A DNA stretch of 64,000 nucleotides from Nisaea sediminum (lineage in GTDB: Bacteria > Pseudomonadota > Alphaproteobacteria > Thalassobaculales > Thalassobaculaceae): NCBI RefSeq assembly GCF_014904705.1, contig NZ_JACZCQ010000001.1, positions 558,001-622,000 on the forward strand, read 5' to 3'. Position 1 is the stretch's first letter. The number at the start of each line of letters is the position of its first letter. Positions 8,320 through 15,075 of the stretch are shown here, in pieces. The notes below the pieces were generated by a model, which worked only from the letters and a program-made list of their open reading frames with translations, searched no databases and was not told the origin of the DNA. The position numbers were made by a program, and so were the translations under genes.

Positions 8320-9546
8320 ATGAGCGAACGATGCCCAATCTGCGATTCGGAAATAGAGCCTCCAACCGAACGTGACTACGGTGATAAAAAGCGGTTTGTT
8401 TGCCCTCGCTGCGGTACCTTCGAGGTTTCTGGCACTGTACTAGCAATGCTGCCGTCCCGTTTGGAAAACGACCCAAGGAGACGGGCAAGATTAAGCTACG
8501 GAATAAGAAAAGAAAGTCGTGACGACAGCAATTTTATGCTTACCAGTCACAATCTTGATCCGTTGTTAAATACAGAGCTTCCCTCAATATCCGAGCAGAA
8601 AGAAATTCTGGTAGATTTTCTGGCGGAAGAGCTCGGTGATGATGAACTTGGGACCATACCTCTACCTTGGCTAGACGGATTGGTAGGGATTCTGGGGACC
8701 ATCGATGAAAGACGGGTGGAGCGGCTTTTCGAGCGGGCGATTGACGATGGGCTGATTTTTAAGGAGCCCAACAACGATCACTATGGCTTAACGGATGAAG
8801 GTTGGAAATCTCATAAGAGGCGTGCAGGAAAAGAAGTTGATTGGAAAGAAATTACTGATTTCATTGAAAATCGACGTAATGAGAAGAATTCTAATAATGC
8901 CGGCTCGAATTTGACCGGTGAAGTGAATGAGGCGGATCTTTTTGCTAGGTCTTGGCGCAATAAATTTGGCGAAAAATCTAGATTGAATGCGAGAACTGTT
9001 CAATGGAATGAACTGAGATCACGGGGAAATTTCCCGATATTTGTGCGCTTTGTGGTTGTGCCTCGATTGAGAAGGACTGATGAGCCGATTGATATTGATG
9101 AGTTGGTCTCTGTCTTAGGATGGGACAACCCAATCATTGAGACAGGCGATTTAGACAATTTTCACGAACAAGCCTTTAACTTGATCTATGGCTGGGTTCG
9201 GGAGTGTATTTCCCAACTGGGGCAAGAAGAGGTAAGCGATCAGTTTTTAAAAGCAGTTTTGACTGACGCGTGGATTAGTCACCATCATAATCCGATTACG
9301 TCTGAAAATTTGAAAACACTCCTTTTAACAACGACATATATAATCAGACATCCGTTCAAGTCTGCATTCAGTGTAATTGTCGTTGGGGGAGCGATTGTTG
9401 TTGCGACGGTTGGTTATCATGCAGCAGACGAAATCGGAGACGCTTTAGGTAAACTTGGCGCCGAGTGGATTGATGACCGCAAAGAGGCAGAATCCGCAGT
9501 TGAGCGCTTAGACTTATTTGCAGAGATTGAGAGTTTGGAAATTTAA
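8320..9546 (+). CDS. Unknown protein: zinc ribbon, winged-helix-like region and C-terminal membrane segment
   Basis: This 408-residue protein opens with two cysteine pairs, CPIC (5-8) and CPRCG (28-32), followed by TFEVSGTVLAMLPSRL. I associate this zinc-ribbon module with uncharacterised and putative defence proteins, from memory. The region around 115-165 (ERLFERAIDDGLIF, then HYGLTDEGW) looks like a winged helix. A charged, low-complexity linker follows (about 175-200), then a helical domain and a hydrophobic membrane segment at about 350-368 (VIVVGGAIVVATVGYHAA), with an acidic tail. It is the only gene of the repeat-bounded island and its AT-rich codon use suggests recent transfer. Sensor-linker-membrane effector is one reading; no function is proven. 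Confidence 0.6.
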   Translation: MSERCPICDSEIEPPTERDYGDKKRFVCPRCGTFEVSGTVLAMLPSRLENDPRRRARLSYGIRKESRDDSNFMLTSHNLDPLLNTELPSISEQKEILVDFLAEELGDDELGTIPLPWLDGLVGILGTIDERRVERLFERAIDDGLIFKEPNNDHYGLTDEGWKSHKRRAGKEVDWKEITDFIENRRNEKNSNNAGSNLTGEVNEADLFARSWRNKFGEKSRLNARTVQWNELRSRGNFPIFVRFVVVPRLRRTDEPIDIDELVSVLGWDNPIIETGDLDNFHEQAFNLIYGWVRECISQLGQEEVSDQFLKAVLTDAWISHHHNPITSENLKTLLLTTTYIIRHPFKSAFSVIVVGGAIVVATVGYHAADEIGDALGKLGAEWIDDRKEAESAVERLDLFAEIESLEI

Positions 9547-12008: not shown

Positions 12009-12368
12009 ATGGAACGCGACTTCACCGCGCGCGGGCACCACGATATGGGCGGACTGGACGCCGGCGAGATCGATCGGGAGGAGCACGATTACGCGCTCTG
12101 GGAGAAGCGGGTGGATGCCTTGATGATGCTCTGCACCAACAGGCTGAAACTCATGACCGTCGACCAGCTCCGCAAGGGCATCGAGGCGCTGCCGCCCGAG
12201 GCTTACGACAATATGACGTACTACGAGCGCTGGATCTCCTCTGTCACCAATACCTTGCTGGAGCGCGGCGTGTTCACCGCCGACGAGCTCGGCGCCAAGA
12301 TGGAAGAGGTCAAGGCGCGCTATCCGGACGGTGTCATGCCGGGCGGCGCAGCCGGGGGAGGCTGCTGA
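12009..12368 (+). CDS. Nitrile hydratase/thiocyanate hydrolase small subunit (NHase beta N-terminal half)
   Basis: The chosen start is ATG 12009 (MERDFTARGHHDMGGLD); an ATG at 11976 lacks family sequence. The 119 residues contain HHDMGGLDAGEIDREEHDYALWEKRVDALM and NMTYYERWISSVTNTLLERGVFTADEL, which match the N-terminal half of the nitrile hydratase beta chain. The product ends at GGGC, where a fused beta chain would continue into its SH3-like half; that half is encoded separately just downstream. This split is known from thiocyanate hydrolase and from toyocamycin nitrile hydratase. The stop overlaps the next ATG by one base. Confidence 0.85.
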   Translation: MERDFTARGHHDMGGLDAGEIDREEHDYALWEKRVDALMMLCTNRLKLMTVDQLRKGIEALPPEAYDNMTYYERWISSVTNTLLERGVFTADELGAKMEEVKARYPDGVMPGGAAGGGC

Positions 12369-12670
12369 TGACCCGCTTCGCCGCAGGAGACAGGGTCCGG
12401 GTTCACAAGCAGTTCCCGCCGACCCCGCCGAGCCATATCCGCACGCCCTATTACATCCGCGGCCTTTCCGGCACCGTGGAACGGGTCTGCGGCGCGTTCA
12501 GGAATCCGGAGGAACTCGCCTTCGGAAGGCCGGGAACGCCGGAGGTTCCGCTCTACCGGGTGCGCTTCCGGCAGAAGGACGTCTGGCCGGATTACGATGG
12601 CAACGAAGCCGACAAGATCGAGATCGAGATTTTCGAATTCTGGCTCGACGCAGAGGGAGACGAGGCATGA
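12368..12670 (+). CDS. Nitrile hydratase/thiocyanate hydrolase small subunit (NHase beta C-terminal, SH3-like half)
   Basis: This 100-residue protein starts with FAAGDRVRVHKQFPPTPPSHIRTPYYIRG, then GTVERVCGAFRNPEELAFG and PLYRVRFRQKDVWPDY. This is the SH3-like beta barrel that forms the C-terminal half of nitrile hydratase beta chains. It starts on the last base of the preceding gene's stop and overlaps the alpha-like gene by 4 bp, so three subunits are made from a tightly coupled mRNA. A free-standing SH3-like NHase protein can also be an activator; the position between the two other subunits and the beta-like sequence favour a structural subunit. Confidence 0.85.
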   Translation: MTRFAAGDRVRVHKQFPPTPPSHIRTPYYIRGLSGTVERVCGAFRNPEELAFGRPGTPEVPLYRVRFRQKDVWPDYDGNEADKIEIEIFEFWLDAEGDEA

Positions 12671-13335
12671 GCGGCGATCATCACCACCATCATCACGATC
12701 ATGATCACGATCACTTGCATCCCTACGATCCGGAACACCATCATCCACACCGTCCCGACCAGGACGACACGATGACCTATTACCGCCTGATGGAAGAGGC
12801 GGTGCGCGAACTGATGATCGAGAAGGGGCTGGTGACGCAGGACGATATCCGCGCCGAGGTCGAGGCGATGGACGCGCGGGTCCCGGCGAACGGCGCGAAG
12901 GTCGTGGCGCGGGCCTGGACCGATCCGGCGTTCAAGAAGCGGCTCATCGAGACGCCGAAGGAGGCGATCGCCGAGGTCGGTCACGATATCGGTCCGATGA
13001 AGCTGGTGGTGCTGGAGAATACGCCCGAGGTGCACAACGTCGTCGTCTGCACCCTCTGTTCCTGCTATCCGCGCTGGATCCTCGGCATTCCGCCGGACTG
13101 GTACAAGAGCCGTTCCTACCGTTCCCGCGTCGTCCGGGAACCGCGCACGGTGCTCCGGGAATTCGGTACCGAGATCGCGGACAATCGCGAGGTGCGGGTG
13201 CACGACAGCACGGCGGACATGCGCTACTTCGTGCTGCCGATGCGCCCCGCCGGAACCGAGGGAATGAGCGAGGCGGAACTCGCCGCGCTCGTCCATCGGG
13301 ATTCGATGATCGGAGTGACGGAAGTCTCCGCCTGA
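12667..13335 (+). CDS. Cobalt-type nitrile hydratase alpha / thiocyanate hydrolase gamma-like catalytic subunit with His-rich tail
   Basis: This 222-residue metal-binding subunit has the claw-setting motif VCTLCSCYP with Cys128, Cys131, Ser132 and Cys133. Thr at position 129 is the marker of cobalt enzymes (iron types have Ser). Further family landmarks are WTDPAFKKRLIETPKEAI, VVVLENTPEVHNVVV-like sequence before the claw, and YPRWILGIPPDWYKSRSYRSRVVREPRTVL after it. Residues 5-28 hold 14 histidines interleaved with Asp, an unusual tail that could store or deliver cobalt. The reaction is hydration of a nitrile (or thiocyanate) to amide; which one cannot be told from sequence. No separate cobalt activator or transporter gene is adjacent. 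Confidence 0.87.
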   Translation: MSGDHHHHHHDHDHDHLHPYDPEHHHPHRPDQDDTMTYYRLMEEAVRELMIEKGLVTQDDIRAEVEAMDARVPANGAKVVARAWTDPAFKKRLIETPKEAIAEVGHDIGPMKLVVLENTPEVHNVVVCTLCSCYPRWILGIPPDWYKSRSYRSRVVREPRTVLREFGTEIADNREVRVHDSTADMRYFVLPMRPAGTEGMSEAELAALVHRDSMIGVTEVSA

Positions 13336-13339
13336 CGCC

Positions 13340-14101
13340 TCAGGCGAAGTAGATGCGGTGGAAGTAGACCGCCGTCAGAACCACACCGAAGCAGATGATG
13401 CCGCTCCGCAGCCAGCGGGTATTGATACGCTTGGCGAGGCGTCCGCCGAAGTAGCCGCCGATAGTGCTGCCGATCATCATGGCGATGGCGGCCGGCCAGG
13501 AGATCAGGCCGCCGATGCCGAAGACTGTCACGCTCAGGATCGTGAAGAAGGTGGCAACGAGGTTCTTCACGCCGTTTGCCGAGTGATAACCCTCGAAGCC
13601 GAAAATCTGCACCACGCCGAGCAGAACAATCCCGAGTCCGGCGCCGAAATAGCCGCCGTAGATCGAGAACCCGAACATCGCGAACAGGATCAGCATGCGG
13701 CTCCGGCTGTGACCCAGTGTTCGAAGCAGGAACGCCCGTAGCTGGTCGCCGAATGCGAACAGGGCCGTTGCGGTGAGCAGAAGGAAGGGGACGATCTCCC
13801 GGAACATGTCGGGATCCGAAACGGTCAGCAGAAACGACCCCGTCACGGCACCGGCGCCGGAAATCAGCAGAAGCGGGATGAGCCGGAACCCGGCAAGTTT
13901 CAACTCTTCCTTATAGGCGGGAAGGGCAGCAGCGCCGGACGGCAGCAATGCAAGATAGTTCGTCGCATTCGCGGTCATCGGCGGAAGACCTGCGGCCATA
14001 AGAGCCGGAAAAGTGAATAGGGACGCACCGCCGGCAACGGCGTTCCAGGCGCCGGCAAAGAGCCCGATCAAAAGGAGGACGGCCAGGATCTCTGGGGACA
14101 T
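13340..14101 (-). CDS. TauE/SafE family membrane permease
   Basis: This 253-residue polytopic protein has about eight hydrophobic segments and the TauE/SafE features AGAWNAVAGGASLFTFPALMAAGLPP and ATNYLALLPSG near the N-terminus, and IGSTIGGYFGGRLAKRI in the second half. Members export sulphite, sulphoacetate or other small organic anions. It is convergent with the nitrile hydratase-like operon (4-base gap) and divergent from a LysR regulator, so the LysR protein is its probable regulator. A link to sulphur released from thiocyanate is possible but speculative. Confidence 0.85.
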   Translation of the reverse strand: MSPEILAVLLLIGLFAGAWNAVAGGASLFTFPALMAAGLPPMTANATNYLALLPSGAAALPAYKEELKLAGFRLIPLLLISGAGAVTGSFLLTVSDPDMFREIVPFLLLTATALFAFGDQLRAFLLRTLGHSRSRMLILFAMFGFSIYGGYFGAGLGIVLLGVVQIFGFEGYHSANGVKNLVATFFTILSVTVFGIGGLISWPAAIAMMIGSTIGGYFGGRLAKRINTRWLRSGIICFGVVLTAVYFHRIYFA

Positions 14102-14199
14102 GAAAAACGGTCCTTGTTATCGATTGCGGAAGTTGCGGTCGCTCGGCAGATCTATCCCAGTCCACGCGTTCGATAAAATGAATTGAATAAATTGTCTCG

Positions 14200-14214
14200 T
14201 TCGAGTAACTCGAA
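14200..14214. promoter_or_regulatory. Palindrome between tauE-like and lysR genes (candidate LysR operator)
   Basis: TTCGAGTAACTCGAA is a perfect 6-bp inverted repeat with a 3-base centre, placed just upstream of the lysR start codon in a 116-bp divergent intergenic region. LysR proteins usually bind dyads of this size in such divergent promoters. Binding is inference. Confidence 0.5.
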
Positions 14215-14217
14215 TGC

Positions 14218-15075
14218 ATGTTGCCGAACAGCGAACAGTTGCGGACCTTCGTCGAGATCGCGGAGACAGGGAATCTGACTTTGGCCGCAAGCCGGCTGAA
14301 CCGGACTCAGTCGGCGATCAGCGTTCAGCTTCGCAAGCTGGAACAGGCGCTCGGAGTATCTTTGTTCGAGCGCGGTGTCCGTGGCATGGCGCTGAGCGAA
14401 AGCGGGCGCAGTTTTCTTCCGGCGGCGCAGCGGACACTGACCGAACTTGAACGTGTAGGACGTTTTTTCGAGGAGCCGCTCGCCGGCCGTATCCGGGTCG
14501 GCATTCCCGACGATTTCGTCGGTGAAATTCTGGAGCGGGCCCTTGCCGAGTTCTCAGTCCGCAACCCGGAGGTCGAGACCGTTGTCGTGTCCAGTTGCGC
14601 GTCGCGCTATCCCGAATTGATCGGAGCCGGAGAGCTCGATGTGGCTGTCTGTTCCGGGCCGGGCGAAGTACCCGGAGAGTTCCTGATGTCCGAGCCCACG
14701 GTCTGGTGCTGCCGGGACGGCATGACCCCGGATCCGTCGCACCCCGTTCCTCTCGCGCTTCTGGATCGAAGCTGCTGGTGGCCTCGAATTCCTGTCGATG
14801 CGCTCGACGCCGTCGGCAAGGAATGGCGGAAGGCCTATTACGGCAGCAGTTTCGAGAGCCTGGTCTCGGCCGTCCGATCCGGGCTGGCTGTCGGCGTCCT
14901 GCCGCGTTCCTGCATCGGTCCGGGGCTGAGGGTTCTGGGGCCGGAGGAAGGGTTTCCGTCTCTTCCGGTGTCGAATCGTTCCATCCTCGTGCGGGCGGGA
15001 GCTCCATCCGACCTCGTCTCTGCCATGGCGGCTGCGCTCCGCAATGCGTGGCGTTCCTCGCCGTGGGCGGAGTAA
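14218..15075 (+). CDS. LysR-type transcriptional regulator
   Basis: This 285-residue protein has the LysR helix-turn-helix at residues 1-60 (LRTFVEIAETGNLTLAASRLNRTQSAISVQLRKLE, then LGVSLFERG). An effector-binding domain (about 85-280) begins GRIRVGIPDDFV. ATG 14218 gives the usual short N-terminus (MLPNSEQLRTFVEIA). It is transcribed divergently from the TauE/SafE permease and a palindrome lies just before its start, so autoregulation and control of the permease are likely. The effector is unknown. Confidence 0.9.
   Translation: MLPNSEQLRTFVEIAETGNLTLAASRLNRTQSAISVQLRKLEQALGVSLFERGVRGMALSESGRSFLPAAQRTLTELERVGRFFEEPLAGRIRVGIPDDFVGEILERALAEFSVRNPEVETVVVSSCASRYPELIGAGELDVAVCSGPGEVPGEFLMSEPTVWCCRDGMTPDPSHPVPLALLDRSCWWPRIPVDALDAVGKEWRKAYYGSSFESLVSAVRSGLAVGVLPRSCIGPGLRVLGPEEGFPSLPVSNRSILVRAGAPSDLVSAMAAALRNAWRSSPWAE

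Follow-up and report, generated by a model that had tools for sequence, protein, structure and literature searches.

Three adjoining genes in the window (the whole stretch of 64,000 nucleotides analysed here) are predicted, with good support from sequence, to encode an enzyme of the cobalt-type nitrile hydratase (NHase)/thiocyanate hydrolase (SCNase) family in which the beta chain is split between two genes. The split group is a widespread bacterial branch, related to SCNase. An SCNase-type arginine beside the metal site marks nearly the whole of this clade, and this mark is new here.

Gene layout and identity

The genes lie in the order betaN-betaC-alpha as three separate ORFs, and beta and alpha are not fused in one polypeptide. 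The features are as follows.

12009..12368, + strand: betaN subunit, 119 aa; match to PF21006 (NHase_beta_N, 5.6e-21), the N-terminal half of NHase beta
12368..12670, + strand: betaC subunit, 100 aa; match to PF02211 (NHase_beta_C, 3.4e-19), the C-terminal half of NHase beta
12667..13335, + strand: alpha catalytic subunit, 222 aa; match to PF02979 (NHase_alpha, 1.1e-80), with a Co-type site
12667..12768, + strand: His-rich N-terminal tail of alpha, residues 1–34; 14 His, low model confidence
13045..13065, + strand: metal-binding motif V-C-T-L-C-S-C, alpha residues 127–133, read from the sequence
13072..13074, + strand: codon of alpha Arg136, the residue of the split clade and SCNase, replacing Trp116/117 of NHase

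The betaN and betaC genes meet at TGATG, with a one-base overlap, and betaC and alpha at ATGA, with a four-base overlap. Against TIGR03888, an NHase beta model of 226 positions, betaN covers positions 2–99 and betaC positions 137–224. The first-pass annotation had described a cobalt NHase/SCNase homologue with its beta chain in two genes (119 and 100 residues), an alpha-like subunit carrying VCTLCSCYP, and all three genes overlapping or touching. The lengths, the coordinates and the Pfam and TIGR03888 halves agree with this description, the motif and both junctions are present, and the domains, PDB matches and trees support the family assignment. The betaC product matches the alpha chain of SCNase in the PDB (2dd4_A, 1.5e-9). 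A single betaC and a single NHase alpha match are present in the draft genome (5.02 Mb, 98.8% complete).

The alpha product passes the NHase alpha equivalog model TIGR01323 (258.3 bits, cut-off 249.85) and fails the SCNase gamma equivalog TIGR03887 (204.7 bits, cut-off 291.45; E 1.2e-60). In the PDB, its sequence is closest to two-subunit NHases (2.5e-63); the match to SCNase gamma is weaker (8.4e-48). In the AlphaFold model (pLDDT 86.7, with the first 17 residues below 50), the predicted fold gives Z 26.9 to NHase alpha 3qxe_A and Z 25.5 to SCNase gamma 2dd4_C, a gap of only 1.4, so that the modelled fold would hardly discriminate between the two. The NHLP-leader model TIGR03793 also accepts alpha, at 69.8 bits against a cut-off of 50.9. 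A reading as a RiPP precursor was rejected, since NHLP leaders are themselves similar to a portion of NHase alpha, and the catalytic domain here is complete.

There is also a resemblance within the operon. Residues 63–106 of betaN (12195–12326) and 30–73 of alpha (12754–12885) are 36% identical over 44 residues (E 8e-8); these parts are the C-terminal half of betaN and the N-terminal hairpin of alpha. Comparison of betaN with alpha in hhalign gives 96% with split profiles and 72% with classical ones, and an HMM of split betaN matches 92 of 109 split alphas, none of 61 classical alphas and none of 850 shuffles. An ancient duplication within the enzyme is a possible origin of this likeness.

Extent and reality of the split

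Relatives in named genomes number at least 592, and the best 80, those nearest to the query, were analysed, a choice that favours the split type. Among these best 80 of at least 592, the order betaN-betaC-alpha is found in 73, an extra betaN in one, betaC-alpha-betaN in three, and alpha alone near a contig end in three. Two of the 73 (L066 and L067) are identical stretches from the two ends of one chromosome record, CP051232.1, and may reflect a circular assembly whose overlap was left untrimmed. The taxa represented in the best 80 are Rhodobacteraceae/Roseobacteraceae, Rhodospirillales, Beta- and Gammaproteobacteria, a Streptomyces, SAR324, Binatota, Rokuibacteriota and Dehalococcoidia, and many of the genomes are metagenome bins. 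No relative was found in the viral contigs scanned.

A less biased sample of 398 Pseudomonadota genomes gave an alpha match in 58 genomes, at 61 places, of which 9 are split and 52 are of the classical type. The split form is thus a minority, but not rare. All nine split places fall in one class and include the present genome and one congener. Within the order to which the organism belongs, alpha is matched in 31 of 36 genomes, and split and classical clusters occur in different genera. None of the 398 genomes passes the SCNase-gamma cut-off (TIGR03887), and SCNase therefore enters the trees as PDB chains alone.

The first-pass annotation had proposed a phylogeny of alpha with SCNase gamma and classical NHases; in this comparison the split clade sides with SCNase, apart from the classical enzymes. 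In the 110-row alpha tree (quick method), 21 classical rows stand apart from 89 others, a set of split loci together with three partial loci and SCNase, with an SH-aLRT of 100. In the 80-row tree of betaN, betaC and alpha together (careful method), 23 classical rows are separated from 56 split rows plus SCNase with support of 100/100. The SCNase branch is very long (1.75), and the trees fix its side, not its place within the split side.

Could the two beta pieces represent a classical beta gene that has been frameshifted or is decaying? Broken beta genes do occur. In a draft genome (G033), the betaN of cluster L012 (836–1187) is broken into two frames, perhaps through an assembly error, and in a classical-type cluster with Trp and an activator (L124:796–1439, − strand) beta consists of two ORFs meeting at ATGA, which would be either an independent split or a frameshift. 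Against such decay in the window, the split is conserved, with tight stop/start overlaps, in more than 100 loci of several phyla. Frames and overlaps were counted in 104 split betaN-betaC-alpha loci, with re-fetched copies dropped. The two beta genes are in the same frame at one of the 104 (L054). Stop/start overlaps (ATGA or TRATG) are found at 53/104 betaN ends and 64/104 betaC ends, and at 16/104 alpha ends, which served as the control; their frequency at the betaN and betaC ends supports joint translation of the three chains. Taken with the clade-wide split and the trees, these counts exclude a frameshift or pseudogene, a reading to which we attach almost no probability. Placement within classical NHases with a frameshift confined to this strain, which the first-pass annotation had named as the outcome against it, was not seen. 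Its statement that the split is absent from ordinary two-subunit NHases is nearly right; the part that falls is represented by L124, a classical-type cluster with beta in two ORFs. In a Binatota cluster (L077:3903–4685), a short-chain dehydrogenase gene lies between betaN and betaC.

The operon belongs to a known kind that has received little study, that of SCNase and toyocamycin NHase. Among the papers listed from the open-licence PMC literature, none has a title or abstract opening that describes the split branch. Published trees of NHase beta and SCNase homologues show enrichment in Alphaproteobacteria, and the passages on those trees mention neither the split nor Arg136 (PMC10098168).

Active-site residues and maturation

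The Co-type site of alpha is Cys128-Thr-Leu-Cys131-Ser-Cys133, and residues 127–133 are invariant among 31 aligned relatives. Residues at the alpha sites were tallied in 109 split and 61 classical rows, again without re-fetched copies. At the third position after CSC, the split rows have Arg (105), Lys (three) or Val (one, L098), and the classical rows Trp (57), His (two) or Phe (two). Where Trp is expected in a classical NHase (Pt-alpha-116/N771-alpha-117), the window alpha has Arg136, and SCNase has Arg at the same position with the same residue number. The PDB titles of 3vyh (aW116R mutant of Pseudonocardia thermophila NHase) and 3vyg (R136W mutant of SCNase) suggest that this position has been tested by others as a switch between NHase and SCNase. 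Both the arginine and the split fall on one branch, so their association counts as a single evolutionary event and fails to demonstrate that Arg tracks function.

Three further positions were compared. The position aligned to what we take, in line with a PDB title, to be alpha-Gln90 is a gap in 96/109 split rows and Gln in 43/61 classical rows, in a part of the alignment that is gappy. BetaN Arg55, the equivalent of the essential beta-Arg52, is invariant (107/107 split and 59/59 classical rows). The Arg of the YxRG motif, betaC Arg31 (YIRG in the window), is kept in 104/109 split and 53/61 classical rows. We infer that it corresponds to beta-Arg157, which we take to be the second catalytic arginine, contacting the oxidised Cys ligands as beta-Arg52 does.

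A search of the whole draft genome with PF21006 gave betaN above the cut-off and a second match, below it, inside alpha. The position of this second match means that the draft genome has no separate beta-like activator; it is without the known beta-like kind, and other kinds are conceivable. Four other members of the genus, and genomes G001 and G002, each show a single alpha and a single betaN match, whereas among the 36 genomes of the order most of those with a classical cluster carry two PF21006 matches. The activator search covered whole genomes in the order and fetched stretches elsewhere. In the fetched split stretches a second betaN match occurs at L091, where it is a real extra gene that could be an activator, and at L012, where it reflects the broken betaN. 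That the split clusters covered here are without an adjoining beta-like activator, with L091 as one possible exception, is also new. In Pseudomonas putida, according to passages of PMC4709657, cobalt uptake needs the beta-like activator P14K.

The alpha tail, with 14 His in its first 34 residues, lies in a region of low model confidence (block pLDDT 40–68 over residues 1–40). It is a possible cobalt-handling segment. As a mark of the split group the His-rich tail was rejected, as classical NHase alphas of the same family carry one too.

Comparison with described enzymes places these characters in different combinations. The classical Co-type NHases (P. thermophila 1ire, P. putida 3qxe and Geobacillus 2dpp) have the fold, CTLCSC and the two catalytic beta arginines in common with the window enzyme, but their beta is a single chain, they have Trp at the position of Arg136, and an activator gene is usual, though not universal. 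Toyocamycin NHase belongs to antibiotic biosynthesis. It resembles the window enzyme, by description, in having three subunits; the Streptomyces enzyme (ToyJKL/TNH) is given in passages of PMC8574189 as an (abg)2 heterohexamer with chains of 21.2, 10 and 11.4 kDa. Fused NHases are known from Monosiga brevicollis and other eukaryotes; in the Monosiga enzyme, according to PMC2603476 and PMC3323583, beta and alpha are separated by a His-rich stretch, and PMC7193024 gives the gene order as beta-alpha with no activator. This eukaryotic fusion is like the window operon, by description, in its succession of beta, His-rich stretch and alpha; it is one polypeptide, in contrast to the three ORFs of the window.

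Genomic setting and predicted function

The nearest flanking genes of the window cluster encode an M81 peptidase, an O-methyltransferase, TauE and LysR, followed by rpsB. This differs from toyocamycin NHase, and the flanking genes do not present a pyrrolopyrimidine biosynthesis cluster. Upstream of the cluster in the window (genus g1) is the M81 peptidase gene, as it is at six loci of genera g3 and g12, and in the organism's own genus the O-methyltransferase gene stands between it and the cluster. Within the family, rpsB is close behind alpha in 16 loci (14 without the re-fetched L035 and L120). Between alpha and rpsB in the window, 13340–15075 holds the TauE (−) and LysR (+) genes; TauE adjoins alpha also in the congener L004, and rpsB is directly behind alpha in L003, L005 and L006. 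An ORF elsewhere in the window (8320–9546, +) has a 408-aa product with no Pfam match.

A frequent setting in Rhodobacteraceae has a fliG-side block on one side of the cluster and genes for a lipid A acyltransferase, EamA, DUF1223 and aconitase on the other. Outside these two families the neighbours vary. Thirty neighbours were tested: 10 represent recurring families (three lack a Pfam match) and 20 are individual genes taken from a range of split loci (seven lack one). Across the clade, these 30 include no recurrent amidase, transporter or sulfur/cyanide gene, and 10 of them are without a Pfam match. This suggests that the operon stands alone and keeps its position within families, and that it does not belong to a nitrile catabolic cluster. 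A formamidase-family gene (PF03069) on contig 10 of the draft genome was considered as a partner and set aside; PF03069 matches in 28 of the 36 genomes of the order, those with classical clusters included, and is therefore uninformative on function. Downstream of the Streptomyces split cluster (L095:5669–8109) are an aquaporin-family (MIP) gene and a NicO nickel/cobalt transporter gene, and an MIP-like gene also stands beside two (L097:5974–6672; L109:5602–6669) of the three betaC-alpha-betaN clusters, which belong to the sister group of L095.

In this enzyme family Co(III) is bound by three Cys, two of them oxidised, and by backbone amides; beta, here in two pieces, supplies two Arg, and water attacks the C≡N carbon. 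The translationally coupled operon would accordingly yield an NHase/SCNase-family enzyme with three subunits and non-corrin Co(III), in which betaN and betaC jointly replace the single classical beta chain. Cobalt would be held in alpha by Cys128, Cys131 and Cys133, two of them probably oxidised to sulfinate/sulfenate, and betaN-betaC-alpha trimers would assemble by analogy with toyocamycin NHase and SCNase. Water would be added to a C≡N bond held among the metal, betaN-Arg55, betaC-Arg31 and alpha-Arg136. With Arg136 the pocket might prefer thiocyanate, cyanide or some polar nitrile, all of them small C≡N compounds of polar or anionic character, to bulky apolar nitriles; the support for this is that SCNase has the same residue and that the swap mutants exist. 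Maturation might proceed without an activator, perhaps aided by the His-rich tail. To our knowledge, little has been established about what nitrile hydratases do in nature, and we know of no activity for any identifiable member of the split clade.

On balance we favour a Co(III) hydrolase with three subunits that acts on C≡N compounds; its predicted substrates would probably be small molecules, polar or anionic. A conventional nitrile hydratase with a broad range of organic nitriles, in which the split is structurally neutral, is rather less probable. The NHase-alpha score and the best PDB sequence matches to two-subunit enzymes would fit it, as would the three subunits of toyocamycin NHase, named for hydrating a nitrile (passages of PMC8574189); the replacement of the pocket Trp by Arg, the gap in place of the alpha-Gln90 equivalent in most split rows and the lack of an amidase among the neighbours tested argue the other way. 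A true thiocyanate hydrolase, converting SCN- to carbonyl sulfide and ammonia and making the split clade a hidden reservoir of such enzymes, seems to us doubtful. SCNase of Thiobacillus thioparus (PDB 2dd4, 2zzd) shares much with the predicted window enzyme: three subunits with NHase beta in two pieces, as the first-pass annotation had said, the Co site CTLCSC, Arg136 and the same side of the tree, besides the TIGR03887 match at 1.2e-60. The window alpha nevertheless lies far under the SCNase-gamma cut-off, which none of the 398 Pseudomonadota genomes passes, and the SCNase branch is long. Around the conserved beta Arg, SCNase has RRR and the window betaN LRK. Passages of PMC7193024 report an activator gene linked to SCNase, and the window is without a beta-like one.

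The favoured C≡N hydrolase can be extended to a broader proposal, which we consider improbable as a whole. The split clade may be a third, activator-free branch of the family with a near-universal SCNase-type Arg, hydrolysing thiocyanate or cyanide (small anionic or one-carbon C≡N compounds) as housekeeping detoxification in marine and soil bacteria, and one of its members may have been the donor of the eukaryotic beta-His-alpha fusion NHase, with which the clade has subunit order and lack of an activator in common.

Arg for Trp beside the metal motif provides a clean sequence mark that separates split from classical enzymes and is common to SCNase. Assays on one cultured member could show whether this Arg signals an anionic substrate, and whether bacteria remove thiocyanate or cyanide more widely than annotation indicates. 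A natural three-piece NHase without a beta-like activator would be useful for studies of cobalt insertion, and the split clade is a candidate bacterial source of the eukaryotic fusion enzyme.
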